Shown: positions 8,099-57,317 of the stretch, piece by piece | Layout: each line of letters begins with the position of its first letter | Position numbering within the stretch: the first letter of the stretch is position 1 | Virus record (IMG/VR): IMGVR_UViG_3300025010_000028 | Coordinates: 123,269 to 187,268 of that record | Source of the DNA: a virus | Direction: 5' to 3' (one strand) | Length of the DNA stretch: 64,000 nucleotides | Notes under the pieces: generated by a model | What the model saw: the letters and a program-made list of their open reading frames with translations, nothing else | Told to the model about the DNA's origin: nothing | Databases searched by the model: none | Made by a program: the position numbers and the translations under genes

Positions 8099-8782
8099 AT
8101 GTTAGAAAAAGAAATAAAGATTTTTAATCTTGGTACAGCTGAAGAAATTGAAAAGATTTTAATTGACAAAGGATGTCAATTTGTTAAATTGGAGGAACAA
8201 ACAAACTGGATATTTAAATATAAAAATAAAAGTATTAGATTAAGAAAAATATTATCTCTTATTGATAGATCTATAACATATGAACACACAACAAAATCTA
8301 TTGTTGAAAGAACGGAAAAACACAAAATTCAAAATGAAAGAACTATTATTATAAATTCAGATGTATTTGAAAAACTTATAATTAATTATAATAAAGAAAA
8401 ATTATTATATATTCCTATTTTAGTAGGAAATAAATTAAGAAAAAGTTTTAAATTAAATAATTTTTTATATGAAATAGATAAATGGAATAGTAGATTTATA
8501 TGTCCATATACTTATTTAGAAGTAGAAGCAATAAATCCTGAAATGAATTTAGACGAAGGTATTAAACAAATATTAAATGAGAACCAAATTGAATCAATTA
8601 TTACAACTACTTTGGGTATTGTTGAAATATTTAAATACTATCATAATGCTAATAAATTCTTTGATTTATTTAGTAAATGTAATATAATTAAAGATGATAT
8701 ATGGTGTGTAGATAGATTTATTAAAATTATTGACAAAGAACTTAATATAAAAGGACTCATTCAGACAGGAGTGGAATTATGA
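8099..8782 (+). CDS. CYTH-type (triphosphate tunnel metalloenzyme-like) protein
   Basis: 227 residues. The N-terminus carries the family signature ExExK as EKEIK (Glu3, Glu5, Lys7). Later segments fit the tunnel-lining strands: KSIRLRK, TTKSI, YEIDKWN and YLEVEA. CYTH/TTM enzymes act on triphosphates, inorganic tripolyphosphate, thiamine triphosphate or cyclic nucleotides with Mg2+ or Mn2+. The last 60 residues are an unrecognised extension. The stop overlaps the next gene's ATG. A link to the polyphosphate kinase at 29 kb is an inference. Confidence 0.7.
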   Translation: MLEKEIKIFNLGTAEEIEKILIDKGCQFVKLEEQTNWIFKYKNKSIRLRKILSLIDRSITYEHTTKSIVERTEKHKIQNERTIIINSDVFEKLIINYNKEKLLYIPILVGNKLRKSFKLNNFLYEIDKWNSRFICPYTYLEVEAINPEMNLDEGIKQILNENQIESIITTTLGIVEIFKYYHNANKFFDLFSKCNIIKDDIWCVDRFIKIIDKELNIKGLIQTGVEL

Positions 8783-9414
8783 TATTTAATAATAAGAAAA
8801 GAAAAGAGGGGTTAAATTTGTCAAGTAATAATAATATTGATGGGAAACTTATAGAAGAATCTATAAGTGATACAAAAACACATATTGATAAAGTTGCTAG
8901 TTTTATAAATTTAATTATAAGTGGGTTAAATGAAAGGGTTTTAAATCATGATAAAAGTAAAATGGAACAACCTGAATTAGATATTTTTGCTATATATGGA
9001 CCAAAACTTAAAGATTCTACTTATGGTAGTGAAGAGTATAGAAGTTTTTTAAAAGAAATGAAAGTTGCATTAGATTCACACTATTCTAAAAATAGACATC
9101 ATCCTGAATTCTATGATAAAAAAGAAAAATATTGTACTGAATGCGGATATGGATTGAATAATCTAAATAACCACTCATATTATAATAAATGTCCTAATTG
9201 TAATACTTCAAATCCTGAAATTAAAGAAAGATATACATTAAGAGGTATGAATCTTATTGATTTGGTTGAAATGATTTGTGATTGGAAAGCCGCTTCAATG
9301 AGACATAATAATGGTGATATTTATAAGAGTGTAATTGATAATAAAGAAAGATTTGGGATATCTGATGAATTAAGTCAAATTCTTTTTAATACAGTTAAAT
9401 TATTTGATAACTAA
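8779..9414 (+). CDS. DUF5662-like protein with inserted zinc ribbon
   Basis: 211 residues. The pattern matches the phage family DUF5662: a helix with HIDKV, LNHDKSK, YGSEEYRSFL, ALDSHYSKNRHHPE, then LIDLVEMICDWKAASMR and GDIYKSV. The histidine/aspartate layout suggests a metal-binding helical hydrolase-like fold, but the family's function is not established to my knowledge. A CxxC...CxxC ribbon (CTECG, CPNC) sits between the two halves. ATG 8779 overlaps the upstream stop; TTG 8818, with its own GAGGGG site, is an alternative start closer to the family core. Confidence 0.7.
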   Translation: MIFNNKKRKEGLNLSSNNNIDGKLIEESISDTKTHIDKVASFINLIISGLNERVLNHDKSKMEQPELDIFAIYGPKLKDSTYGSEEYRSFLKEMKVALDSHYSKNRHHPEFYDKKEKYCTECGYGLNNLNNHSYYNKCPNCNTSNPEIKERYTLRGMNLIDLVEMICDWKAASMRHNNGDIYKSVIDNKERFGISDELSQILFNTVKLFDN

Positions 9415-9420
9415 CTAATT

Positions 9421-9463
9421 AATTATAATACTAATAACTTAATAAGTTATTAGTATTATAATT
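9421..9463. terminator. Bidirectional terminator between convergent genes
   Basis: A 20-base perfect inverted repeat (9421-9440 with 9444-9463) lies exactly between the plus gene ending at 9414 and the minus gene ending at 9464. Confidence 0.85.
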
Positions 9464-10117
9464 TTAAAAAATAATTTCATCATTAGACCATGATTTAATA
9501 TTTTTTTTCAATTCAAGTACATTTTTATCAAATGATTCATACTTCTCAGATAATTCAATATATTTATTTATCTTCTGAATTTGTTCGGGATGAATTCCTG
9601 TTCTATATTTGTTTAAGAATGTAACTAAATTACCGAAAGCTTGTTTAAGATTAATAAAAATATTATTATCATGCACTTGTTGATGAACACTTTTAGATAA
9701 CATTACTACCTGAATATTATTGTTTTTATGTTCCTCTAATAAAGTATTGGATATAATAAAGGTATTTATTTTTTTATTTTTAGCTAAATAATAATCAGTT
9801 ATTATACATGCACAATCAAATAAAGTAAGTATCGGACCATGATGAAGTTCAATCTCAGCGCTTTCATCATCTATATTGGATAGAACTTGACATCTAGTTA
9901 AACCAATATCATTTTTTAAATATGAAATATATTTTTTATAAAAATTATCACCCCTTACTTGTTTTTCAACCGCTTTAATAAAAGATACAAAATTATCTAT
10001 ATTAGAAAAGTATTCTCCATTTTTATAAAAAGGTAAAGCAAATGCACAAGTATCCGAATCAATAATCGGTCTATTCTTAGTATTCTTAAATTTGATATTT
10101 GCTATGTTATTACTCAT
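9464..10117 (-). CDS. HNH-like protein, paralogue of 1360-2022
   Basis: 217 residues from the ATG preceded by AAGGAG. It shares with the 1360 gene the ordered pattern IELHHGP...FD, an Asn (HKNNNIQVVML), VHQQVH and AFGNLVTFLNKY. It is the only minus-strand gene in the first 32 kb, isolated between a bidirectional terminator and a divergent start region, which would suit an inserted free-standing endonuclease. Nuclease activity is inferred; spacing of the HNH residues is unusual. Confidence 0.55.
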   Translation of the reverse strand: MSNNIANIKFKNTKNRPIIDSDTCAFALPFYKNGEYFSNIDNFVSFIKAVEKQVRGDNFYKKYISYLKNDIGLTRCQVLSNIDDESAEIELHHGPILTLFDCACIITDYYLAKNKKINTFIISNTLLEEHKNNNIQVVMLSKSVHQQVHDNNIFINLKQAFGNLVTFLNKYRTGIHPEQIQKINKYIELSEKYESFDKNVLELKKNIKSWSNDEIIF

Positions 10118-10199
10118 ATAATACAACTCCTTAAAAAAGATTTTTGAAAGTACATTTCATTAATAGTATGTTTTTTATCAGAAGGGGGTTTAAATATAA

Positions 10200-17936: not shown

Positions 17937-18343
17937 AATTAATTTGTTCCCTTGTACAGTAATGTACATTGAATAACCTGGTGAACCATCAATAGATGGG
18001 TGTCAGATATAATATCTGGCTAACGGTAAAAGTTAAATAAGTACTAGTTATATAGTAACGAATACACTTTCTAAGAGAGCCTACGGTCCTGAAATATGGA
18101 TAGCAGGTAATACCGTCGTAAGCTCTAATATTTTTAAAAATATTAGAGAAACGCTAACGACTATCGAAAGCTATACACATCTTTTCTGATGTTGAAAATA
18201 AGGTATCATTGATACACGAAGCGAGTAGAGTAGGGGTAATAAGGGTGAAAATCCCGATCCGAAGTGCCAGGGTACCTATATAAAAAATAGGTATATGATA
18301 TAGTCTAACCCGTTTGAAATACCTCAAAAGAGGCGGTACAGTG
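17937..18343 (+). ncRNA. Group I intron 2 (family B), in nrdD
   Basis: 407 bases, no ORF. P1: exon end GAAU pairs with GUUC (17946-17949) with U-G at the splice site. The core shares TAAGAGAGCCTACGGTCCTG and ATATGGATAGCAGG with the RNA polymerase intron at 24820, and has ATGATATAGTCTAACC near the 3' end. The last base is omega G 18343, after which GAT ATG CAC resumes the reductase frame. Confidence 0.9.
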
Positions 18344-19729
18344 GATATGCACGGTGGTCAATCATTTGCTTTCTTTGATAAGGATATGGCTGAATTTTTT
18401 GTTGATGCTAATGATAACGAGGCTTATCAAGCATGTGAAGCTCTTATTTATAATTTAAATAGTATGCATTCTAGAGCTGGAGCTCAGGTACCTTTCAGTA
18501 GTTTAAATATTGGTACTGATATGAGTGACGCAGGAAGAAAAGTGACAAAAAATATTTTACTTGCATATAAAGCCGGTTTAGGTAAGGGAGAAAATCCAAT
18601 TTTTCCAAATATTATTTTTAAAGTTAAAGATGGTGTTAATGTAGAACCAGGAGATCCAAATTATGATTTATTTAAATTAGCTTGTGAAATAGCTGGTACT
18701 AAATTAAATCCAACTTTTTCATTTATGGACTCTAGTTTTAATAAGCAATACACAGGTGATGCTGAAGTAGCTTATATGGGTTGTAGAACTAGGGTTATTG
18801 GTAATATTAATGGACCTGAAACTACAGATAAGAGAGGTAACTTATCATTTACAACATTAAATTTACCTAGACTTGCAATAAAAGCAAAAGGTAGTATTGA
18901 AAAGTTTTTTACATTACTTGAAAGTAAATCAAATCTTATATTTGATCAACTTAATCATAGATATGACATACAGAAGAATCTACTTGTAAGAGATATGCCT
19001 TTTATTATGGGTCAAGGTTTATATCTAGATTCTAACAAATTAGATTATAATGATAAGATAGAAGAATCTATCAAACATGGATCTATGTCAATTGGATTTA
19101 TTGGTCTTGCAGAAGCATTAGTATCTTTAACTGGTAAACATCACGGAGAAGATACTGATGTATATGAACTTGGTTTAAGTATTATAAAATTAATGAGAAA
19201 ATTTTGTGATAATGAAACAATTAAAAGAAAACTTAACTTTGTTCTATTAGCAACACCAGCTGAAGGATTGTCAGGTCGATTTTTAAGACTTGATAAAAAA
19301 CAATTTGGAATCATTCCAGGGGTTACTGATAAAGATTATTATACTAATAGTTTTCATATACCAGTAGGATATAATATTGGTTGGTTCAGTAAAATTATGT
19401 TGGAAGGGTCTTTTCATAAGTATTGTAATGCCGGTCATATTACTTATATTGAGTCATCATCTCCCTTTCTTTATAATACTGAAGCTGTAATTAATATTAT
19501 TAAATATATGAAAGAGTGTGATGTTGGGTACGGTGGGATTAATTTCCCAGTTGATTTTTGCCGTTCATGTAATTATTCGGGAGTATATCCTAAGGAATGT
19601 CCAAGCTGTAGTTCTGAAGACATTAATAGAGTAAGAAGAATTACAGGATATTTAAGTACAATAAATATGTTTAATAGTGCTAAGAAATCAGAACTTAAAG
19701 ATAGAGGAACGCATATTGATGGAGTATAA
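18344..19729 (+). CDS. nrdD: Anaerobic ribonucleoside-triphosphate reductase, exon 2
   Basis: Catalytic barrel and C-terminus of NrdD. Seen: DMHGGQSFAFFDKD, VPFSSLNIG, AYMGCRTRV with the thiyl-radical-type Cys, a zinc site of two CxxC pairs (CRSCNYSG, CPSC), and RRITGYLS with the glycyl-radical Gly near the C-terminus. All key residues are intact, so the spliced enzyme should be functional once activated by a radical SAM activase. Confidence 0.92.
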   Translation, partial: DMHGGQSFAFFDKDMAEFFVDANDNEAYQACEALIYNLNSMHSRAGAQVPFSSLNIGTDMSDAGRKVTKNILLAYKAGLGKGENPIFPNIIFKVKDGVNVEPGDPNYDLFKLACEIAGTKLNPTFSFMDSSFNKQYTGDAEVAYMGCRTRVIGNINGPETTDKRGNLSFTTLNLPRLAIKAKGSIEKFFTLLESKSNLIFDQLNHRYDIQKNLLVRDMPFIMGQGLYLDSNKLDYNDKIEESIKHGSMSIGFIGLAEALVSLTGKHHGEDTDVYELGLSIIKLMRKFCDNETIKRKLNFVLLATPAEGLSGRFLRLDKKQFGIIPGVTDKDYYTNSFHIPVGYNIGWFSKIMLEGSFHKYCNAGHITYIESSSPFLYNTEAVINIIKYMKECDVGYGGINFPVDFCRSCNYSGVYPKECPSCSSEDINRVRRITGYLSTINMFNSAKKSELKDRGTHIDGV

Positions 19730-23583: not shown

Positions 23584-24819
23584 TTGAAACATGATGAAGT
23601 TAGACTAGTAAAATTAAATTGGGATGAGGAGTGTGAAAAGGATTTTATTATAGGAAAAGGTTTTGAAATAAAAGAACCTGCTTTTAAAGGTAAGCAGAAG
23701 AAATCTAAATATGGTATCCAATCACCTTTATTTGCTACAGATTTTGAAGATGATGATGCATTTGCTGAAAGATATACTTGTGAATGTGGTGAGTTAAAAG
23801 GTAGATTATATGATGAAGAAGAATGTTCTATATGTGGTACAATAGTTAAATTTAAAGATGTTGATTTAAAGATTACTGGTTGGATTAAATTAGGTGAGTA
23901 TTTTATAATACATCCAATATTTTACAGGATGTTAAAATCAATAATTGGAGAAAAGGGTTTCCTTGAAATTATTGAATATGATAAAGAATTTACTAAGGAC
24001 GGTCATATAATTAATAAACAAGGTAAAACTCCATTTAAAGGTATTGGTATTATGGAGTTCAAAGAAAGATTTGATGAAATAATGGATTATTATAGAGCCA
24101 AAAAGAAGAATAAGATTGAAATGATTGAAGAATTATATAAAGAGAAGGATAAAGTATTTGCTTCATGTATTCCAGTTTATTCATCTGTATTGAGACCCTC
24201 TCAATTTAAAGGAGAATCATTTTTCTATAATTCTATGGATAAGAAATATAATCCAATAGTTTCTTTAAGCAATCTATTAAAAGATAGAGACTTAATAGAA
24301 ACTAGAAAGAATAAAGACTGGGGGGATATAGATGAGAATAAAATTCTTAGTATAATTCAAAAGAAATTAATTGAATTATGTTATTTAATATTTAAACAGA
24401 TAGATCAAAGAAAAGGTCATATCAAATGGGAGATTCTCGGTGGTAAAATTAATTTTTCAGCCCGCTGCGTTGTAATACCTGATCCTGTTTTAAAAGCAAA
24501 TGAAATTAAATTAGGTTATTTGGCATTTTTAGAATTGTATAAATATGAGATAATAACTCATGTTTCTAGAATAAATGATATTTCTGAGAATGAAGCATAT
24601 GAATATTGGTATAAAGGTACCATTGTTTATAATAATAAAATATATGAAATAATGAAATATTTATTAAAGAAGTGGGAACCAAAAGTTCTTATCAATAGAA
24701 ACCCTACAATTAATTATGGATCTATGCTTTTAATGAAAATAGTTGATATTAAGAATGATAATACAGATCAATATACAATGAGTTTACCTATACAAATATT
24801 AAAGGTTTTAAATGCGGAT
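23584..24819 (+). CDS. RNA polymerase beta' subunit, N-terminal fragment, exon 1
   Basis: Joined 23584-24819 + 25899-26078 the gene encodes 471 residues of the beta' N-terminal half. TTG 23584 follows GGAGGTG. Seen in order: the zinc finger (CECGELKGRLYDEEECSICG, about residues 64-83), KINFSARCVVIPDPVLK (counterpart of the GKRVDYSGRSVIVVGP region) and LINRNPTINYGSMLLMK (counterpart of LLNRAPTLHRLG). The exon ends with AAT GCG GAT, so splicing joins NAD to FDGD and recreates the Mg2+-binding NADFDGD motif of the active site. A split beta' chain indicates a phiKZ/AR9-like transcription system; no beta subunit was found here. Confidence 0.92.
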
Positions 24820-25898
24820 CAATCTACCATCAAGGTCCGGCGTATCAGTAATGATATAGCGAGTTCTATGTGAACGCTTAACAAGCGGTGTGAGTAATAT
24901 TTTATTATTACTTGCTAACGGTATCAGTTAAATAAGATTACTTGTATGACAATTACAAGTCTTGTCTATATGACATGTCCATAAGCGAAAACACTGACTA
25001 AGAGAACCTACGGTCCTGAAATATGGATAGCAGGCAATACCGTGCCAAACTCCACTAGTTTATAAGGAAAAATAAGGAGGTGAAAATAAATATATGATAA
25101 TCAACATAAAACCTTACGGGTTTATATATGTTCTAACAAATAAAAACAATGGTAAAAAATATATCGGTCAAACTAAAAATATAATACGTAGAATTAATGA
25201 ATATAAAACACGTAAAGTTTTTTCTAATAAAAAATATAATTACACAATTATGAGAATTATTAATAAAATAGGTTTTCATAATTTTAGTTTTGAAGTAATA
25301 GATGATGCTTTTTCTAAAAAAGAATTATCCAGAAAGGAAAAATATTATATACTGTATTTTAATACAACAAATCCTGAATTTGGATATAATTCCCGCTTGG
25401 GTGATTTAAAAGGTTGTTTAAATCAAACGACCAAAGAATTAATGTCAAAATCTCATAAAGGTCTTAAAGAAACAGGTATTACAAAAAAGAAAAAATCAAA
25501 AAGGGTTATAGTATTTAGAGATAATAATTGTTATATTTGTGATAGTGGAAAATTATTTGGTAATTTTATTGGTAAGGGTAGAGATATAATTAGTCATTTT
25601 ATTTTAAATGGTTATCGTGTTTGTGGATGGTATGTTTTTAGATTAGATGATAACATTGATAGAAGTTATTTATATGAGAATCTTATGGATAAAAATTATA
25701 TTAAATTATATAAACTAGTGGAGATGGGTCTAGAGACTATTGAAAGCTTATATCAAGTAAAATATATTGAATATAAGTGAGTAAAGTACTGATCAGTTTG
25801 TGGGCTGGTTGGGAAGCACATAGCTCCTACAATAGTAGGATGAAGATATAGTCCATTCTGTATGAAAATACAGTTTATGTTTTATATAAAACATAATG
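24820..25898 (+). ncRNA. Group I intron 3 (family B) with GIY-YIG endonuclease gene
   Basis: 1079 bases. P1: exon end CGGAU pairs with GUCCG (24835-24839) with U-G at the splice site. The core has GCTAACGGTA, TAAGAGAACCTACGGTCCTG and ATATGGATAGCAGG, shared with the nrdD intron, and GATGAAGATATAGTCC near the 3' end. The omega G is 25898. The endonuclease gene lies in a peripheral loop, leaving the catalytic core intact. It splits the NADFDGD codons exactly after the first Asp pair (NAD|FDGD). Confidence 0.93.
25094..25780 (+). CDS. GIY-YIG homing endonuclease, intron-encoded
   Basis: 228 residues. GFIYVLTN and KKYIGQTKN form the GIY-YIG pair at residues 9-28 (GFI-YIG variant), and a conserved Glu lies in SRKEKYYI. 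A NUMOD3-type DNA-binding stretch is suggested by MSKSHKGLKET, and the C-terminal third probably contacts the target site. The expected role is to cut intron-free copies of the polymerase gene to promote intron homing. GGAGGTGA lies 12 bases upstream of the ATG. It is the only endonuclease gene inside the five introns. Confidence 0.9.
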   Translation: MIINIKPYGFIYVLTNKNNGKKYIGQTKNIIRRINEYKTRKVFSNKKYNYTIMRIINKIGFHNFSFEVIDDAFSKKELSRKEKYYILYFNTTNPEFGYNSRLGDLKGCLNQTTKELMSKSHKGLKETGITKKKKSKRVIVFRDNNCYICDSGKLFGNFIGKGRDIISHFILNGYRVCGWYVFRLDDNIDRSYLYENLMDKNYIKLYKLVEMGLETIESLYQVKYIEYK

Positions 25899-27275: not shown

Positions 27276-28520
27276 ATGGAATATGCTATGGCTCAAACAT
27301 CATTGGCCCATACATTTGGTAACATTACTTCTTTTATGACGGAATTTGTTAGGAGTTTATTTACTCCAAATTATTTTAAAACTATTCATATTAGTTCCAC
27401 TATAGCTTATAAACAGTTTAATATATTTCAAAATTCAAATAAAGAATTTATAAAAAAGAATAAACCTATATTAATAATTAAACCAAGAATTGAATTAGAT
27501 GATAGTGATACATTTCTTTACGGAACATATTTAACTACTAGAATTACAGATAATTTTATGGATATAGATTTTAGTAATCTACAACCATTTATTGAAGATA
27601 GAACAAAAGGAGTTTATATAAAATATTTATTAAATCGTATAAAAATGTATTTTGATGTAACTATAATAACAGATACTCAAATACAACAATTAAATCAAGC
27701 TAATTATTTAAAGAATAGAATAAGACAAGATAAACCATTTTTTTTAGAAACATGCTTAGAAAGTTATATTCCTAGAGGTCTTATGGAACTTTTAGCTAAA
27801 GATATAGGAATTGATTTATATACTATTGATGGAAGTATTAAAACTTTTTTAGATTATATGAATGGAGTATCAATATTTCCAATAACATATAAAGTAAAAA
27901 ATGCTTCAGCTAATGATGAATTTTTTAGATTTTATCCTGTTAATATTGATACAACTTTTTCTAATTTAACTATTGATGATGGAAATAAAAAAGGAATGAT
28001 TGCAGATTCATATGCGACAACTTTTACAGTTTCAACTGAATTTAATGGTGCTGGTTTGTATTATTATCTAACTCAATCATCAGGAATAATAACAGAAACT
28101 GATTTATCGATAGTTGATAATAAAAATCAAATAATACCAATGTTTACTATTAGTAATTTATTTACTGAACAAATTCCTACTGGATGGACGTTATATGCTT
28201 ATCCTTTATATAAGGTTGAAAATAATGATCAACCTGATTTAATGGATATAAAACAAGTATTAAATAAAAGTATATTAGCATCCATTGACTATTGTTTAAC
28301 CCATGGTATTCCATTAGAAACAATACTGAAGTTTTATGTTATGATGGATAATAAAATGTTAAATAGAGATATAGGTGAGTATGATATTGATTTTAGCACA
28401 TTAACTCTAATAACAAAAAATGTTAATACATATTCAACATATAGATTAATAATATATGTAAATGCTTTATATATAAATACATTAATGTTAGATGTATATG
28501 GATTTAATGAAGAAAAATAG
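27276..28520 (+). CDS. Probable virion structural protein
   Basis: 414 residues after TTAGGAGG. Starts MEYAMAQTSLAHTFGNITSF and contains IRQDKPFFLETCLESYIPR; the second half is beta-rich with YSTYRLIIYVNALYIN near the end. No catalytic motif or signal. Composition and length fit a tail or baseplate component of a large phage, but I do not recognise the family. Confidence 0.5.
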   Translation: MEYAMAQTSLAHTFGNITSFMTEFVRSLFTPNYFKTIHISSTIAYKQFNIFQNSNKEFIKKNKPILIIKPRIELDDSDTFLYGTYLTTRITDNFMDIDFSNLQPFIEDRTKGVYIKYLLNRIKMYFDVTIITDTQIQQLNQANYLKNRIRQDKPFFLETCLESYIPRGLMELLAKDIGIDLYTIDGSIKTFLDYMNGVSIFPITYKVKNASANDEFFRFYPVNIDTTFSNLTIDDGNKKGMIADSYATTFTVSTEFNGAGLYYYLTQSSGIITETDLSIVDNKNQIIPMFTISNLFTEQIPTGWTLYAYPLYKVENNDQPDLMDIKQVLNKSILASIDYCLTHGIPLETILKFYVMMDNKMLNRDIGEYDIDFSTLTLITKNVNTYSTYRLIIYVNALYINTLMLDVYGFNEEK

Positions 28521-28578: not shown

Positions 28579-28962
28579 TTGGTAATAATTATAGAAGTTG
28601 TATATGGTGAAAAATTTAGTGAGTTAGTTAAAAAAATTAAATCTAATAAAAACAAAAACCAACTACTTGTTATACCAGAATGATTTTATATTAATTTGGA
28701 AGAGGACAAGGTAGATTTATTAAAATATGCAAAAACTGAAATAATCAAAAACCGTAGTTATGGTTCAATAGGATATAAATCAGTGGACGAAAATACATTT
28801 AGAAAAAAAGTAAATTTAGGTGATACTATTATTTATAAATATGATAATGATTTAGGATATGGTATTGTAAAAGCAATTACTTGGAGAGGGGTTAACATAT
28901 CTACTAATCAGGGTGATAGATTTTTTAAATGGTGTCATGTTTTACAAATAAATAAAAAATGA
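28579..28962 (+). pseudogene. Small gene interrupted by in-frame UGA
   Basis: TTG 28579 sits behind AAAAAGGAGG and opens 34 codons ending QLLVIPE, then TGA (28681-28683), and the same frame continues for 93 more codons (FYINLEEDKVDLLKYA to VLQINKK) to TAA 28962. The downstream part has no ribosome site of its own (TTG 28696 is the first candidate), and its beta-rich domain (NLGDTIIYKYDNDLGYGIV) looks intact. Nonsense mutation, readthrough (Trp would fit) or sequencing error are the options. TGA is a normal stop elsewhere in the window. Domain unrecognised. Confidence 0.5.
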
Positions 28963-28980: not shown

Positions 28981-29014
28981 AAAAGAAGATAACTATATAG
29001 TTATCTTCTTTTTA
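28981..29014 (+). terminator. Rho-independent terminator
   Basis: AAAAGAAGATAACTAT followed directly by its complement, then T residues. Confidence 0.85.
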
Positions 29015-29016
29015 TT

Positions 29017-29028
29017 TATATATTATAA
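29017..29028 (+). promoter_or_regulatory. Candidate promoter motif TATATATTATAA
   Basis: Near-exact copy of the recurrent motif between terminator and the polyphosphate kinase gene, 43 bases before its start. Confidence 0.45.
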
Positions 29029-29071
29029 CAGTGAATATTAATAAATAAATAAATATTAGGAGGTAATTGAT

Positions 29072-31195
29072 TTGACTTTAAATAATAATTTTACATCCTT
29101 ATTAAATAATGAAATAAAACAATTTAATTCTTTTAATAAGTCACATTTTTATATTAACAGAGAATTAAGTTGGTTAGATTTTAATAAAAGAGTTTTACAT
29201 CAAAGTATTAGAAATGAGGTACCTATATTAGAAAGATTAAAATTCTTAGGTATTTCATCTAGTAATTTAGATGAATTTATTATGGTTAGATTTGCATCTT
29301 TAGTAAATAATCTTATTAATGAAAGAAATGAAGATATATCTGGATTAAATTATGAGGATGAATATGATAAAGTTCTAGATATTATTAAAGAATTTAAATT
29401 ATTACAAAATAGTAGTTATAAAAATTTATTAAAAATCATTAACAAGAATAATATTCATATTTGCAAATACGATAATTTAACAAAGAAAGAGAAAGAATAT
29501 ATAGAAAATTTATTTAATAAAAATATTTACCCTCTTTTAACACCAATATCATATGATACTACTAAAGACTTCCCACCAATCAAATCTAAACAATTGAATA
29601 TAATTGTATCATTAGAGGATAAATATAATAATAATCTTCAAGTTATATCTATAATACCAATAGAACATCTTGACAGATTATATAAGATTGAAACTGATGA
29701 TGAAACAAATAAATATATCTTTCTTGAAGATATTATTTTTACATTCTTAAATAAAATATTTGTTAATAAAAATATTTTAAATAAAGGGTGCATGAGAATT
29801 TTAAAAGAAGCCAATACTGAAATGGAACATGATATAGACATTTATATTGTTGATAGAATGAAATCAACTCTCTTGTTAAGAGAATATAGTGATCCACTAT
29901 TTATGGAAGTAACAGATAACTTATCTAAACAAGTAATAAAGATATTAACGAAAATATTTAAATTAAATAAAAGTCATGTATTTAAGACTGATACTATATT
30001 AGATTATTCATTTTTTATTTCTATGCCAATTAAAAATCAAATTTTACAGTATGATGAATTTAGTTCTCAATATCCACAAGAATTAATAGGTGAACATGAT
30101 ATGTTTACAGCCATTGATAACAATGATATTTTATTACATCATCCGTATGAGAGTTTTAATCCAATAGTAAAATTTATTGAACATGCTTCTGTTGATATTA
30201 GTATTGTCGCCATTAAACAAACTTTATACAGAGTTTCTTCAATAGATTCACCTATAGTTGAAGCTTTATGTAAAGCATCTTTAAATGGTAAACAAGTTAG
30301 TGTTTTATTAGAAATAAAAGCTAGGTTTGATGAGAATAGAAATATATCTTTAATAGAAAAATTAAAATTAGCTGGTTGTAGAATAATTCATGGAATGGAT
30401 GATTTAAAAACTCATTGTAAATTTATAGTAGTTGTTAAAAGAACTCATAAAGGAGGATTAAAATTATATTCTCATTTAGGCACAGGTAATTATAATGATA
30501 AAACATCTGAGATTTATACAGATTTGTCTTATTTCACTTCTAATCAAAAGATAGGGGAGGACTTACTTAATATATTCAATATATTATCAGGTTTTTCTGA
30601 ACCATCTACAGATATAAATAAATTATATTTTGCTCCATATAATTTAAGAAATAAATTACATCAGTTAATAGATAATGAAATTAAACAAGCTAAAAATAAA
30701 AAGAAATCATGTATTACATTAAAATTAAATTCATTGTCTGACAAAGATATAATAAAGAAATTATACTTTGCATCTGAAAATGGAGTAAAGGTTAATATTG
30801 TTTGTAGAGGAATTTGTTCTATGAAACCTATTAATAAAAATATAACTATCAGAAGTATAATAGGTAGATATTTAGAACATAGCCGTATGTATTACTTTCA
30901 TAATACAGGAATTTATATTTCAAGTGCAGATTTACTTACTAGAAATTTAGATAGGAGGGTAGAAATTTTAATTCCTCTAGATGAGGAAAATATAAAAATA
31001 AAAGCTTTATCTATATTAACATATTACTTTAAAGATAGTGTAAATACATATGTTATGGATAAAGAAGGTAAATATTCTTTATTAAAGATTATTAACAATG
31101 TATTTAATATACATGAGTATTTTATGGATGAAGCTGTTAATAACTATAAATTACGGACAATTCCTAAAATGTCTAAAATAAAGAAAATAATATGA
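29072..31195 (+). CDS. ppk1: Polyphosphate kinase 1
   Basis: 707 residues, about the length of bacterial PPK1. N-terminal FYINRELSWLDFN, then LGISSSNLDEFIMVR, HHPYESFNPIVKFI, KQTLYRVSS (Mg2+-site Arg), LEIKARFDENRN (second Arg), LKTHCKF with the phospho-accepting His near residue 447, HLGTGNYND, and YLEHSRMYYF with the second active-site His near 602. All key residues are present, so the enzyme should make polyphosphate from ATP, or run in reverse. TTG start behind TAGGAGGT. This is unusual cargo for a phage; the neighbours are virion-type and small unknown genes, so it is not obviously part of a host operon. Confidence 0.92.
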   Translation: MTLNNNFTSLLNNEIKQFNSFNKSHFYINRELSWLDFNKRVLHQSIRNEVPILERLKFLGISSSNLDEFIMVRFASLVNNLINERNEDISGLNYEDEYDKVLDIIKEFKLLQNSSYKNLLKIINKNNIHICKYDNLTKKEKEYIENLFNKNIYPLLTPISYDTTKDFPPIKSKQLNIIVSLEDKYNNNLQVISIIPIEHLDRLYKIETDDETNKYIFLEDIIFTFLNKIFVNKNILNKGCMRILKEANTEMEHDIDIYIVDRMKSTLLLREYSDPLFMEVTDNLSKQVIKILTKIFKLNKSHVFKTDTILDYSFFISMPIKNQILQYDEFSSQYPQELIGEHDMFTAIDNNDILLHHPYESFNPIVKFIEHASVDISIVAIKQTLYRVSSIDSPIVEALCKASLNGKQVSVLLEIKARFDENRNISLIEKLKLAGCRIIHGMDDLKTHCKFIVVVKRTHKGGLKLYSHLGTGNYNDKTSEIYTDLSYFTSNQKIGEDLLNIFNILSGFSEPSTDINKLYFAPYNLRNKLHQLIDNEIKQAKNKKKSCITLKLNSLSDKDIIKKLYFASENGVKVNIVCRGICSMKPINKNITIRSIIGRYLEHSRMYYFHNTGIYISSADLLTRNLDRRVEILIPLDEENIKIKALSILTYYFKDSVNTYVMDKEGKYSLLKIINNVFNIHEYFMDEAVNNYKLRTIPKMSKIKKII

Positions 31196-31399: not shown

Positions 31400-31618
31400 A
31401 TGAGTATAGTATCTAATTATATTGAGATGGGTATTGATAAAGGAAGATACCATAAAACATTAGATGAAGCAATGATTAATGCCTTTTTTGATTGTGAAAA
31501 TAATACTACTTATGTATATAAAATAATTGATAAAATTAAGATATATACACGGGAAGATATAGTTAAATATTGGATGGATAATAATTTTCTAGGAAAATTT
31601 TTAACATTTTCATTATAA
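31400..31618 (+). CDS. Hypothetical protein
   Basis: 72 residues behind TTAGGAGG, unrecognised; begins MSIVSNYIEMGIDKG. Belongs to the run of small genes after polyphosphate kinase. Confidence 0.55.
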   Translation: MSIVSNYIEMGIDKGRYHKTLDEAMINAFFDCENNTTYVYKIIDKIKIYTREDIVKYWMDNNFLGKFLTFSL

Positions 31619-31734
31619 TATTTTACTATAGAACTATAATTGCAGAATGATTTAACATTAATTTAATTAAAAATGGGTAAATGTTTATAATAATATAATA
31701 AGAGTTACCTGAAAATAAAAGAGGGGGTATTTAA

Positions 31735-31998
31735 TTGTTTACAAATTGTGATTTAAAGAAAGCTGTTACTAATAATTGTTTAAGAGAAGACTATATTTGT
31801 AATGCAGATAAATGTAAAATTTATAAAATATGTAAATTAGTAATGTCTGATGTTTATAAAAGTAAATTAAAAGAATTAATAAGTAATGAGTTAAAAGAAT
31901 TATTGGAACAAGAAAATTTAGTAATTGAAAAATATAATAGTAAAAGTGGTAAAAATAGTGTATTATTTCAAGATAATTATATATTAGTAACTAAATAA
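31735..31998 (+). CDS. Small cysteine-rich protein
   Basis: 87 residues from TTG behind GAGGGGG. Cysteines cluster in the first 40 residues: FTNCDLK, NNCLRE, YICNADKCKIYKICK, which suits a metal site. A related pattern appears in the frameshifted gene at 63871. The C-terminal half is helical and charged. Function unknown. Confidence 0.6.
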   Translation: MFTNCDLKKAVTNNCLREDYICNADKCKIYKICKLVMSDVYKSKLKELISNELKELLEQENLVIEKYNSKSGKNSVLFQDNYILVTK

Positions 31999-32040
31999 AA
32001 TAAGATAAGATGATACTAAATATCATCTTATCTTATTTTT
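31997..32040. terminator. Bidirectional terminator between convergent blocks
   Basis: A 19-base perfect stem (31997-32015 with 32021-32039) between the plus block and the minus block starting here. Confidence 0.9.
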
Positions 32041-41314: not shown

Positions 41315-42500
41315 TAAGGTTTATGTTGGAATTTCTATAGGTGATATTCATTTTGGTTCATCCATTAAATCAAAAGACTTATACTATCAATTACAAAAAG
41401 GATATTTAAACTATATCGAAAAATTAAAAGTAATAGATTTTATAGTTATAGTAGGAGATTTTTTTAATACTAAGATTTCAATGAATTCAGATCATGCCAA
41501 ATATTCTTTACAATTTATTTTTAGATTATTGGAAATTGCTTATAAAAAAAATATTAAGGTTAGACTAATAAAAGGAACTGAGTCTCATGATAATAAACAA
41601 TTAGAAATATTAGAAATATATACCAAAAATAATAAATATGATTTTAAAATAATTTACACTGTTGAAAGTGAATTATTATTTGATGATTTAAAAGTATTAT
41701 ATTTACCCGAAGAATATGTTGAAAATAAAGATGACTATTATAAAGAATATTTTGAGTCTAAATATGATATGATATTTGGTCATGGTTTATTTGGTGAAGT
41801 TGTTTTTGTTGCTAATAAACAAGAAAGTGAAATGACAATGAGTAAAGCTCCTATATTTAATTCAGATACTTTATTAAATATAACGGATGGATTAATAATG
41901 TTTGGTCATATACATGAATCACAAATAATAAAGGAACGTATATTTTATACAGGTTCTTTCTCTAGATGGTGTTTTGGAGAAGAAAATGATAAAGGATTTT
42001 ATTTATTCTCTTATTCACCTATTAGTAAAAGTTTTAATACTGAATTCATAATTAATAATTTAGCTAAAAGATATGATACTATCACTATAGATTATAACAA
42101 TAAATCTTTCTTTAATAACAGTGAAAAAGAACAAATAGATTATCTAATACAATTAGTTGATAGTTTAATAATAGATTATATTAGACTAATAATAAATATT
42201 CCAGAAGATTTTCATAATACTTTATTATTTACTAATATGATAAATGAAGTATTTAATAAGTATTCAAATGTAAAAGTTATTATTAATAATAATAGTAAAT
42301 TGAGACAAAAAAAAGAAACTGAAGAAAAGATAAATTTATTATTAGAGAAATATGGATTTATATTTAATAAGAATATATGTCCAGAAGAAAAGATTTCTAA
42401 TTTTATAAAAATAAAATATAATAAAGACATTACAGTAGATAAAATTAGATACTATTTATATCAACAGATACAGAGGAGGACATCTTTTAATGGTAAGTAG
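41307..42500 (+). CDS. SbcD/Mre11-like metallophosphoesterase (recombination nuclease subunit)
   Basis: 397 residues. TTG 41307 with GGGGGA six bases upstream is preferred over ATG 41289. Phosphoesterase motifs: ISIGDIHFGS, VIVGDFFN, IKGTESHDN (usually GNHD), GHGLFGE and FGHIHES. The family pairs with an SbcC/gp46-type ATPase to open DNA ends; none is seen in the window. The start overlaps the end of the upstream nuclease and the stop overlaps the helicase ATG, so translation is probably coupled. Confidence 0.85.
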   Translation: MSNKVYVGISIGDIHFGSSIKSKDLYYQLQKGYLNYIEKLKVIDFIVIVGDFFNTKISMNSDHAKYSLQFIFRLLEIAYKKNIKVRLIKGTESHDNKQLEILEIYTKNNKYDFKIIYTVESELLFDDLKVLYLPEEYVENKDDYYKEYFESKYDMIFGHGLFGEVVFVANKQESEMTMSKAPIFNSDTLLNITDGLIMFGHIHESQIIKERIFYTGSFSRWCFGEENDKGFYLFSYSPISKSFNTEFIINNLAKRYDTITIDYNNKSFFNNSEKEQIDYLIQLVDSLIIDYIRLIINIPEDFHNTLLFTNMINEVFNKYSNVKVIINNNSKLRQKKETEEKINLLLEKYGFIFNKNICPEEKISNFIKIKYNKDITVDKIRYYLYQQIQRRTSFNGK

Positions 42501-43343
42501 AAAAAAATTATTTAAGGTGGTTGAGAATGAAGTAAAAAAAATAAGCTTAAAATTTGATATTAGTATGTTAAATATGTTGATAGGTTTTTTATTTAAAAAT
42601 TCTTCACAAGTATCAAGAAAATCTTTAAATAATTTAAAGAATTTATTTGAAATTATAGATGAAAGAATATATGAAGGAAATGAAAAGATAGAATCGAGAA
42701 TTTATTTTATTAAAAGAGCTTTAGAAGCTCGTTTAGATAGAGGTTTTGAGAACGAAGATGCGATAATTAATTATTGTAGAACTGATACTTTCAACAAAGA
42801 AATAGAAGAGATTATAAAATCTTTACTCATATATAAGAAGATAAATTATGAAGAGATTAAATATATTAATAAAGCTATTGTTGATAGACTTAAATATGCA
42901 TATTTATTTAATTATAAGGATAGATTATATGAAAGTATTGAACGTCTTGATAGTGGTTCATATAATAGTTTTCAGGAAATAAATGAAGACTTAATTGATA
43001 TATGCAGTAAAATATTAAATCATAGTAGAAAAGTTTCAACTGTTGATAATACACAGACTTTTAGTTTAGAAGAAGGTGTATTTGAAGATGTCGTAACAGA
43101 TATAGTTAATGAGTTAAAAGATCCTGCACGTATATTAAAAACAGGTATACAAAAATTAAATCATATATTATCTCCAGGCTATATGAGTACATGCCTTTAT
43201 ACATATTTAGGTTTACCCGCTGGATTTAAATCTGGAATTCTTTTAAAAACAGCAATAGATATAAAGAAATATAACAAAGGTATGAAAGTTAAAAAACCTG
43301 GTAAAAAACCCTGCGTATTATTACTAACAATGGAAAACACGGT
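42490..43343 (+). CDS. DnaB-like replicative helicase, exon 1
   Basis: Joined 42490-43343 + 43701-44161 + 44554-44903 the gene is 1665 bases (554 residues). Exon 1 has a helical N-terminal domain, then the RecA-like core with Walker A GLPAGFKS (about residues 241-248) and VLLLTMENTV, the DnaB H1a-type segment. The Walker A replaces the usual Gly-Lys by Phe-Lys but keeps Lys-Ser. Splicing restores MENTVQESVERLFNM. It presumably unwinds DNA at the phage fork. Two introns in one helicase gene is the notable feature. Confidence 0.85.
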
Positions 43344-43700
43344 TAGATTATTGGCCGGTTCTTTTTTAATTGTCGGGAAAACTCTTAGAGTTCTTACTAC
43401 CAAACTTAGTATATTATTATATTAAGTGGCGAAGGGTAATTCCTTAGGTATGGTAACAAGGTAAGAGATTGAGTGATCCGCAGCTAAGATTCCTTATATA
43501 ATAAGGAATAAAGTTCAACGACTATCCCTTTGGATCTGAAATGATCAATAGGAGTAGGGCCTAAGTAGGTGGGTGAAATTCCCTTAAATCGAAATGGAGA
43601 GACTTTCTAAAAAGAAAGAAGATATAGTCTAGTATCCTAATGAAAGTTAGGGAAGTTCATAAGAGAACTGCATAGATTAACGACCTATGTGAATATAACG
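43344..43700 (+). ncRNA. Group I intron 4 (family A), first helicase intron
   Basis: 357 bases, no ORF. P1: exon end CGGU pairs with GCCG (43354-43357), U-G at the splice site. Core elements AATTGTCGGG, ATCCGCAGCTAAG, TTCAACGACTATCCC and AGATATAGTCT match intron 1 closely. The omega G is 43700. Confidence 0.9.
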
Positions 43701-44161
43701 TCAAGAAAGTGTTGAAAGATTATTTAATATGACTGTAACTTCAGACAATATTAGAAGTTTTACAGCTAAACAAGTAATAAAAAAATTAAAAGAAGATGGA
43801 GAATTAGTTTTATCAGATAGTAATGATATTGATATTATTATTAAATATTATTCTAATAGAGAAATATCAACAGCTGATTTATATACAATAATAGATGAAT
43901 TATCTGATGATGGTAAAGAAGTAATATCTTTGATTTTAGATTATATTAAAAGAATTAGACCTTATGAAAGAGCTAAAGATGAAAAAGAAGAATTAAAAAA
44001 TATAACTAATGAATTAAAGAATTTAGCCGTCGATAAAGATATACCTGTAATCACAGCCCATCAATTAAATAGGTCTGGTGCAATAAGTGTAGATTCAGCT
44101 TTAATGGCTAACAAAGAGGATTTAGCGAGATTTCTTGGACGTGGTAATGTGGGCTCTGCCT
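43701..44161 (+). CDS. DnaB-like replicative helicase, exon 2
   Basis: Carries the Walker B-type VISLILDYIKRI, the following IPVITAHQLNR (H3 segment) and GRGNVGSA at its end. The exon stops one base into a Trp codon; splicing gives GSAWEIVENSDW, close to the conserved end region of DnaB-family helicases. Confidence 0.85.
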
Positions 44162-44553
44162 TAATAAATAGGGCTTCATAATAGTAATATTATGTTATTA
44201 TTTCTTTAATTGTCGGGGAAGCTCTTAGAGCCTAAAACTACTAAATTATATTAGTAATAATATAATGGCTTGGACTAATCAACCAAGGTATAGTAACAAG
44301 GTTTTAGGATTGAGTAATCCGCAGCCAAGTCTCATATATATTATTATGAGAAAGGTTCAACGACTATCCCATTGGTGTTGAAATACACAACAGGAGTAGG
44401 GCCTATGTAGGTGGGTGAGAATCCTTTAAATCGAAATAGGAAACTCCATTATACTGATTATATAATGGATGAAGATATAGTCTATTATCTTAGTGAAAAC
44501 TAAGGAAGTTCATAAGAGAACTGCATAGATTAACGATCTATGTGAATTAAAAG
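44162..44553 (+). ncRNA. Group I intron 5 (family A), second helicase intron
   Basis: 392 bases, no ORF. P1: GCCU at the exon end pairs with GGGC (44171-44174). The first 30 bases after P1 (CATAATAGTAATATTATG) and the core are almost the same as in intron 1. The omega G is 44553. Frame and the restored GSAWEIVENSDW motif confirm both splice sites. An exact copy of the promoter-like 12-mer occurs inside (44335), probably by chance. Confidence 0.9.
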
Positions 44554-54962: not shown

Positions 54963-57317
54963 ATGTTTGATAAAAATGTTAAAATAGAAAATATTGGTGA
55001 TATATGTACCCATTATATGCAAATATATGGTGCTAATACAAATCTTATGAGACACATACCCTTTGCTGAAGATGGATTAAAGATAGGAGAAAGAAGAATA
55101 TTATATACATTATATGAATTAGGCTGCTCATATAATGATAGATTTAAAAAAGTGTCAACACTTGTAGGTCAGGTTTTAGCATATCATCCTCATGGTGATA
55201 AACCTGTTTATGATACACTAGTCAAATTAGCTCAACCTTGGCATAATATTCAATGCTTTATTGAAGGTAGTGGAAACTTTGGTAATCCTATTGGTGACTC
55301 AGCTGCGGCTTCTCGTTATATTGAAGCCCGTTTAAGTTTTTATTCTTATAAATGTTTCTTTGAGGAATTTAATAAAAATATTGTTGATATGAAACCTAAT
55401 TATAGTGGTGATTTATTAGAACCAGAATATTTACCAGCTAAATACCCAAACGTATTAATTAATGATAGTTTTGGTATAGGGTATGGATTAAGCTGTTCAT
55501 TACCAACATATAATTTTAGAGAAGTCTGTGAATTAACATTGAAATTAATAGATGACCCAGATTATGAAAATATTACTTTAATACCAGATTCACCAACCGG
55601 TGCTCTTATAGTTGATGAAAATAATTTTAAAGAATTATCCGAAACCGGTAAGGGCAAGTTTAAAATGAGGGCTAGTTTTGATTTAGATGAAGTTAATAAT
55701 ATTATTACTGTTACATCGTGTCCTTTAAGAGTTCATTTAAAAGATGTCTTAAAGGATCAGATAATTGCTTTATTTGATGAAGGAAAATTACCTGGATTAA
55801 AAGATATTAAAGATGAATATTCAGAAAGAAATGGCATTAAATTAAGACTATTTCTTAAAAAAGAAGTTGACCCAATTTCTATTATTCATACCTTATATAG
55901 AAAAACTGATCTTGAAAAGACATATCCTGTTAATTTTAAACTAATTGATGATTATGAAGATAAAGATTTTAATATCAGAATGTTACTATTATCTTGGATT
56001 GATTTTAGAAGAGATACTAAAAGAAGAATTTATAATCATAAGATAACTAAGGTAAGAGAAAGACAACATATATTGAAAATATTATTGTTTATCTTAAATG
56101 AAGAAAATGGTGAGAAGACTTTAAGAATTATTAAAAAATCTGAAAATAAAGCCGAGATTGTTAATAAATTAATGTCAGCTTTTGATATAACTTCTTTACA
56201 GGCTGAGAATATATCTGAAATGAGAATGAGCGCTTTCTCTAAAGAATCATATAAAAAATATAAGAAAGAAATGATAGATATTAATGAAAAGATTGAAAAA
56301 TATGAAAAGATTGTTAAATCAGTAAAAAGAATTGATAAAATAATTAAAAATGAGTTAGAAGAAGGAATAAAATTATTTGGTGAAGATAGAAAGAGTAGAG
56401 TTATTTCTATTGAAGGAGAAACTAAAATACAAGACACTAATCATTTAATAGTTTTTACTTTTAATGGATTTGTGAAAAAATTATCTGATAAATCTACTTC
56501 TATAGGCAATATATCTCAGGGGGATTACCCTATTGAAATAATAGAATCAAGAAACACATCAGACTTATTAATCTTTGATGAAAGTGGTAAGGTTTCAAGA
56601 TTACCTGTTCATATGTTAGACAATAGTATTATTACTAGTAATGGAGAGAAATTAAATAAATATTGTAATATAAATGGAAATATTAATACCATATTTCCTA
56701 AACCTACAATTGAATCAATATCTAGTATTAAAACACCAATTTATTTCTTAATGATTACAAAGAATGGTGTTATTAAGAAAACTCTAGTTAAGTATTATAT
56801 GAATATTAAAAGTGATTTAGTTGGACTAATTATTAAAGATAATGATATACTAAAATCAGTTAAATTACTAGCTGGTGATAAAGATGTTGTTATTTATACT
56901 AATAAAGGGTTTGGGGTTAGAATATCTTCATCTGATATTAGAGAAACAACTAGAATGTCTATTGGTATTAAAGCAATTGAATTAACTGAAAATGAAGAAG
57001 TAATTGGAATGGATATTGTGAATGAAAAGGATAAATATTTATTTGCTTTAACTAATAAAGGTACAGGTAAGAAATGTACCTTAAAAGAATTTAAAACTAT
57101 GGATAGAAATAGTAAACCATTAAGAATTATTAGTTTAGAAGATGATGAATATGTGGTAATGATTAAAACAGTTAAAGGTAATGAAGTATTCAAAGCATAT
57201 TTAAAAAATACTGTTGAAGAAATTAAAATAAATGATGTAATAGAATTACCTAGATTAAGTAAAGGGAGAAAATTAATATCAGTACGTAAAGGTGAAGTTA
57301 TTATTGACATAAGATAA
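54963..57317 (+). CDS. Type II DNA topoisomerase A subunit (GyrA/ParC-like)
   Basis: 784 residues. Breakage-reunion domain: DGLKIGERRILYTLYELG, YHPHGDKPVYDTLVKLAQPW, GNFGNPIGDSAAASRYIEAR with catalytic Tyr119 (matching E. coli GyrA Tyr122), then the tower and coiled coil. The C-terminal 280 residues carry strand repeats (DLLIFDESGKVSRL, YFLMITKNGVIKKT) of the beta-pinwheel type, without a clear gyrase box, which favours a topoisomerase IV-like action. Partner of the B subunit at 50915. Confidence 0.92.
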   Translation: MFDKNVKIENIGDICTHYMQIYGANTNLMRHIPFAEDGLKIGERRILYTLYELGCSYNDRFKKVSTLVGQVLAYHPHGDKPVYDTLVKLAQPWHNIQCFIEGSGNFGNPIGDSAAASRYIEARLSFYSYKCFFEEFNKNIVDMKPNYSGDLLEPEYLPAKYPNVLINDSFGIGYGLSCSLPTYNFREVCELTLKLIDDPDYENITLIPDSPTGALIVDENNFKELSETGKGKFKMRASFDLDEVNNIITVTSCPLRVHLKDVLKDQIIALFDEGKLPGLKDIKDEYSERNGIKLRLFLKKEVDPISIIHTLYRKTDLEKTYPVNFKLIDDYEDKDFNIRMLLLSWIDFRRDTKRRIYNHKITKVRERQHILKILLFILNEENGEKTLRIIKKSENKAEIVNKLMSAFDITSLQAENISEMRMSAFSKESYKKYKKEMIDINEKIEKYEKIVKSVKRIDKIIKNELEEGIKLFGEDRKSRVISIEGETKIQDTNHLIVFTFNGFVKKLSDKSTSIGNISQGDYPIEIIESRNTSDLLIFDESGKVSRLPVHMLDNSIITSNGEKLNKYCNINGNINTIFPKPTIESISSIKTPIYFLMITKNGVIKKTLVKYYMNIKSDLVGLIIKDNDILKSVKLLAGDKDVVIYTNKGFGVRISSSDIRETTRMSIGIKAIELTENEEVIGMDIVNEKDKYLFALTNKGTGKKCTLKEFKTMDRNSKPLRIISLEDDEYVVMIKTVKGNEVFKAYLKNTVEEIKINDVIELPRLSKGRKLISVRKGEVIIDIR

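Follow-up and report, generated by a model that had tools for sequence, protein, structure and literature searches.

The polyphosphate kinase 1 gene (ppk1) described here comes, judging from its genomic setting and phylogeny, from jumbo phages of an uncultured AR9/phiR1-37-like lineage. It lies in a window of 64,000 nucleotides, the whole stretch of DNA that was analyzed, which forms the last 64 kb (positions 123269–187268) of a 187,268-b IMG/VR virus record (IMGVR_UViG_3300025010_000028). It is tempting to speculate that a large uncultured branch of RNA polymerase (RNAP)-encoding jumbo phages has since ancient times had PPK1 as a near-core early gene, that polyphosphate synthesis in the first minutes of infection is a general takeover or energy-buffer strategy of these phages, and that the ppk1 copies of two Vibrio phages and of contig G025 are later, independent acquisitions. 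We offer this broad picture tentatively, with doubt slightly outweighing belief.

The phage record and its kinase

The record is rich in phage genes, including those for RNAP subunits, a divergent family B DNA polymerase (PF20286), a divergent DnaB, topoisomerase II, a major head protein, a tail sheath protein and virion structural proteins, and ppk1 thus sits inside a phage gene block, as the original prediction had it. PF20286 was absent from all 14 control genomes. The gene for a multisubunit RNAP beta′-type subunit (23584–24873, + strand) marks the AR9/phiR1-37-like lineage and a common gene order. At 187 kb the record is probably a fragment, the jumbo criterion being more than 200 kb; its nearest relative, G001, measures 250 kb. 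By RNAP and by the 414-residue protein encoded next to ppk1, the nearest cultured phages are phiR1-37, the AR9/PBS1 group, LPJP1 and Staphylococcus jumbo phages. Indeed, AR9/PBS1 (Bacillus), phiR1-37 (Yersinia), LPJP1 (Listeria), AH12 (Staphylococcus) and their relatives share with the window both the multisubunit RNAP and a homolog of the 414-residue protein, and tblastn detected no PPK1 in any of them.

The ppk1 open reading frame (29072–31195, + strand) begins with TTG, is free of internal stops and encodes 707 amino acids. A ribosome-binding site, AGGAGG (29058–29063, + strand), lies 8 nt 5′ of the start codon and is kept as GGAGG or GGGGG in two relatives, L009 and L010. The single protein chain contains four Pfam domains (PP_kinase_N, PP_kinase, PP_kinase_C_1 and PP_kinase_C), all above the gathering cut-off, scores 677 bits against the TIGR03705 "polyphosphate kinase 1" equivalog (cut-off 465.85), and matches E. 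coli PPK1 in the PDB over residues 25–665 (E 4.8e-96). Both active-site histidines are present, H448 and H603 corresponding to E. coli H435 and H592. Also kept are N65, R387, R418, H468, Y482, D484, R579, R629 and E631; in E. coli numbering, the full set of N45, R375, R405, H435, H454, Y468, D470, R564, H592, R621 and E623 is intact. An AlphaFold2 model of the protein has a mean pLDDT of 87.8, and its top Foldseek matches are the PPK1 structures 1xdo (TMq 0.85, E 3.1e-56), 9uuh, 9urj, 9uri and 2o8r. The claim of a full-length, 707-residue PPK1 with both active-site histidines is therefore borne out by the Pfam, TIGR03705 and PDB matches and by the unaltered H448 and H603, and structure prediction agrees with it, the confident model matching E. 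coli PPK1.

PPK1 is an oligomeric enzyme whose ATP-dependent synthesis of polyphosphate is reversible, and the window gene apparently encodes an ordinary, working example. It resembles bacterial PPK1 (E. coli Ppk, PDB 1xdo/1xdp; TIGR03705) in its four-domain architecture, catalytic residues and fold (TM 0.85), although the two proteins are 29% identical in structural alignment. As the activity is a prediction, one might imagine a catalytically dead PPK1 fold put to some other use, for example as a binding protein. However, all 11 catalytic positions are intact in the window PPK1 and in nearly all phage copies (the exceptions being H454 replaced by Q in three distant copies, with the L185 protein truncated in the tested frame), and the dN/dS of ppk1 is low (0.13–0.16), so that we regard a dead enzyme as highly improbable. 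We consider it quite likely that ppk1 yields an active PPK1 made early in infection. The L185 gene (about 8221–10186 of a 52-kb contig) is split over two overlapping frames, perhaps through a frameshift, an assembly error or a programmed event.

Transcription, inheritance and origins of ppk1

An intrinsic terminator with a 14-pair stem and a T tract (28981–29012, + strand), near-invariant in L009 and L010, ends the transcription unit upstream of ppk1. Directly 3′ of it stands the motif ATTTATATATTAT (29014–29026, + strand), which matches three early promoters annotated in the AR9 record, reading AAATATATATTAT. Downstream of the kinase gene, two small ORFs of 72 and 87 residues (31400–31998, + strand), possibly co-transcribed with it, come before a bidirectional intrinsic terminator (31997–32039) that closes both the ppk unit and a converging minus-strand unit. 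According to these predicted signals, ppk1 has its own transcription unit behind an AR9-type early-promoter motif. In this it is unlike bacterial ppk1 and, having no adjacent ppx, it is also unlike the E. coli ppk-ppx operon.

Across the window, 13 of 16 copies of the 9-mer TATATATTA fall 30–90 nt 5′ of an ORF, compared with 7% for scrambled words. Among the 13 related jumbo-phage ppk genes, 11 are preceded by the early-promoter motif, as against 1 of 82 comparison genes (80 bacterial and 2 from Vibrio phages), and the motif also precedes several more distant jumbo copies; the two relatives in which it is missing directly 5′ of ppk are G009 and G011. Under a first-order Markov model the chance of the motif per upstream region is 0.2–20%, so that any one occurrence counts for little but the combined pattern is strong. 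Such phages use a virion-carried RNAP to transcribe their early genes (PMC7598289), and we infer that ppk1 is an early gene. Further copies of the motif stand just before other genes (window 26565, 33150, 46511, 47121, 50239, 53916, 54582, 54919 and others), including a topoisomerase II subunit gene at 54963–57317, and provide a map of likely early genes.

The upstream neighbor of ppk1 encodes the 414-residue phage core protein (27276–28520, + strand; phrog_21946), whose phiR1-37 homolog, g272, has a structural-protein annotation. Between the two genes lies a putative 88-residue ORF (28696–28962, + strand) with related ORFs only in L009 and L010. The core gene stands immediately 5′ of ppk1 in IMG/VR relatives at 90, 87, 65 and 56–66% identity, and likewise in L030/L031, whose PPK1 is 41% identical. 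PPK1 was found in 11 of 12 other records retrieved via the core gene, the exception (G012) being a 125-kb fragment. In the 227-kb contig G008 each of the two genes stands near a different end, as expected for a circularly permuted genome, and in G011 about 20 kb separates them. Trees of PPK1 and of the 414-residue protein are broadly congruent, which fits a single early gain together with one loss or gap. The dN/dS of the core gene is 0.12–0.32 and, among close relatives, 0.12–0.13, near the value for ppk1; that of a fast-evolving 872-residue gene is higher, at 0.38–0.48. Taken together, these comparisons indicate that ppk1 is under purifying selection and has long been inherited vertically in the phage lineage, with a stable place beside a structural gene. 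The 414-residue protein was rejected as a functional partner of PPK1 because its homologs are structural or core genes of phages without ppk; its AlphaFold2 model is weak (pLDDT 66). No polyphosphate pathway partner was found among the genes flanking ppk1.

In a prevalence survey based on the divergent DNA polymerase, all seven contigs of at least 200 kb with at least 49% identity carry ppk. Those without it were a distant contig of 228 kb (27% identity) and 11 shorter fragments, which are uninformative because in G000 some 110 kb separates ppk from the polymerase gene. When single sequences were used in a first-pass scan, no bacterial relatives and no IMG/VR relatives of the Vibrio ppk were returned. 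Wider scans, which used degenerate patterns and were non-exhaustive, found PPK1 in many further large contigs; the IMG/VR contigs of at least 200 kb with ppk1 number 17, and all 17 carry the phiKZ-type DNA polymerase PF20286.

Phylogeny was also used to check for a host placement, a risk named with the original prediction, and the window PPK1 did not fall among host sequences. The 13 related jumbo-phage PPK1s form one clade (SH-aLRT 99) with no bacteria inside, and the nearest bacterial PPK1 among the bacterial sequences found is 41% identical to the window protein. In a 67-row tree, one branch separates 24 of 25 jumbo PPK1s from the bacteria, with a modest SH-aLRT of 92 and long branches present. 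These placements bear on the possibility that ppk1 is misbinned host DNA, or a host gene acquired recently and by chance that does nothing for the phage. The collections do contain contamination of this sort: MT835512 and "Acinetobacter phage MD-2021a" (CAKLQF/CAKLQH) are filed as phage, and their ppk matches sit among bacterial genes. We accept contamination for both, and for IMG/VR L032, which is called bacterial solely from its 63% GC, tree position and short contig. For the window record, however, the many phage core genes, the distance to any bacterial PPK1, the bacteria-free clade, the conserved synteny around ppk1 and the purifying selection all argue against it; we reject it there as barely conceivable.

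PPK1 genes in phages do not share a single source. The Vibrio phages vB_VcorM_GR7B and GR11A (MT366760 and MT366761; jumbo-sized at 208 and 195 kb, with a polyphosphate kinase annotated) also encode full-length PPK1 with the catalytic residues kept. Their proteins, however, are 31–33% identical to the window PPK1 and group near Acinetobacter/Verrucomicrobiota PPK1, and neither the divergent DNA polymerase nor a phage RNAP was found in these two genomes, unlike in the window record. A single clade of the jumbo group with GR7B/GR11A was rejected (p-AU 0.0007), which rules out one origin for the ppk1 of jumbo and Vibrio phages, and the PPK1 of G025 (L174) groups within Bacillota sequences in the 67-row tree. 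Phages have thus gained PPK1 more than once.

Polyphosphate during infection

We propose that the RNAP packaged in the virion would transcribe ppk1 at DNA entry, so that PPK1 would be present at the host-takeover stage, and that the enzyme would then polymerize the gamma-phosphate of ATP into polyphosphate. This polymer would serve as a reversible phosphate and energy buffer, from which PPK1 would regenerate ATP/NTP while the genome is being replicated. Higher polyphosphate levels would probably also tilt host physiology (nucleoid silencing, proteolysis and stress responses) toward the phage. Among the roles that the original prediction suggested for polyphosphate are an energy or phosphate store, a chaperone and a modulator of host stress and Lon, all of which would be candidates. 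The PPK reaction is near equilibrium, at about 70% ATP and 30% ADP (PMC9520863), and neither Ppx/GppA nor PPK2 was detected in 17 records including G000, the absence of other polyphosphate genes from the window record being provisional because that record is probably a fragment. For these two reasons PPK1 itself could return phosphate as ATP/NTP, and its reverse reaction is the only way of regaining ATP for which a phage gene was detected. Matches to DHH phosphoesterases in some relatives are weak, and the DHH proteins near the Vibrio ppk were dropped as candidate exopolyphosphatases because of weak matches and a DHHA1 domain in one of them.

In the most economical and most likely reading, PPK1 would make polyphosphate from ATP early on and could itself hand phosphate back to ADP, although an early ATP-consuming polymerase could be costly. 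The proposal as a whole, combining an active early PPK1, net forward synthesis and a buffer role, stands for us evenly poised between acceptance and doubt, and the sequence by itself cannot choose between forward synthesis, net reverse action and a takeover effector. Perhaps, for instance, PPK1 works mainly in reverse, converting stored polyphosphate and (d)NDPs into NTPs for phage transcription and replication soon after the phage enters hosts that are starved and rich in polyphosphate. The reaction can run both ways and is close to equilibrium, ATP is favored when polyphosphate and ADP are supplied (PMC9520863), early timing suits the energy demand, and the anaerobic ribonucleotide reductase encoded by the record points to anaerobic hosts. 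However, the kinetics of PPK1 enzymes favor synthesis (PMC9520863), PPK2, which would be better suited to the reverse reaction, was not detected, and the host would need a polyphosphate store. We consider a mainly reverse role unlikely.

Or, perhaps PPK1 is a host-takeover tool, with polyphosphate as an effector that silences or condenses the AT-rich DNA of the host together with nucleoid proteins such as Hfq, or that redirects proteases and stress responses. The early promoter before ppk1 would fit such a role, and polyphosphate-Hfq silencing in E. coli might point there (PMC10954037). The phage genome, however, is itself about 76% AT and open to the same silencing, and the silencing work concerns E. 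coli, whereas the probable hosts are other bacteria; a primary takeover function is, in our estimation, quite unlikely. We favor early synthesis with later return of phosphate by the same enzyme.

The conserved, probably early gene suggests that these jumbo phages change how the cell handles phosphate polymers and energy as infection begins. Polyphosphate is among the most widespread stress and storage polymers of bacteria, and our searches found no described phage shown to control it. The conserved early jumbo-phage PPK1 makes such control directly testable, and the Vibrio phages GR7B/GR11A provide cultured systems with an independent ppk1. Control of this kind would, for one defined group of phages, widen the phosphorus-related auxiliary genes of viruses (phoH and pstS) to the metabolism of phosphate polymers.

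Virus-encoded ppk is said to have been reported by Li et al. in 2025 (Water Res 268:122678). Virus-encoded ppk1/ppk2 has been described from metagenomes, namely sediment and activated-sludge viromes, whose viral contigs carry ppk, as here, in the role of an auxiliary metabolic gene; a statement of lineage-wide, early-promoter ppk in RNAP-encoding jumbo phages was not found there (PMC13188868). The original view of PPK1 as nonstandard phage cargo thus holds for cultured phages, but a virus-encoded ppk1 is not wholly new, given these metagenomic genes and the annotated kinase of GR7B/GR11A. The conservation of the gene within its lineage and its place behind the early promoter were not part of the original prediction. 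No literature on jumbo-phage PPK1 was found, and it appears that the kind is already known and that the conserved early ppk1 of RNAP-encoding jumbo phages is undescribed so far.

Further features of the record

AR9, PBS2 and phiR1-37 have uracil-containing DNA. The window record has matches to ThyX and thymidylate kinase; uracil in DNA is not readable from sequence, so these give no verdict either way. The anaerobic ribonucleotide reductase, NrdD (18314–19729, + strand; E 4.8e-148), is matched from profile position 101 onward and gives a hint that the host is anaerobic; nrdD/nrdG are also encoded by GR7B.

Two group I introns were detected in the window (43310–43652 and 44152–44505, + strand). 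The ORFs at 42490–43425 and 43729–44181 are pieces of the divergent DnaB helicase gene, which both introns appear to interrupt. Rfam gave no introns above threshold in the other 120 kb of the record. The repeated words AGAACTGCATAG and GATATAGTCT, possibly intron ends, occur before about 8–10 ORFs across the record. In the nearest relative, G001 (IMGVR 3300025000_000053), the divergent DNA polymerase is matched at two sites, 14.1–15.8 kb and 242.0–244.0 kb, one of them split.
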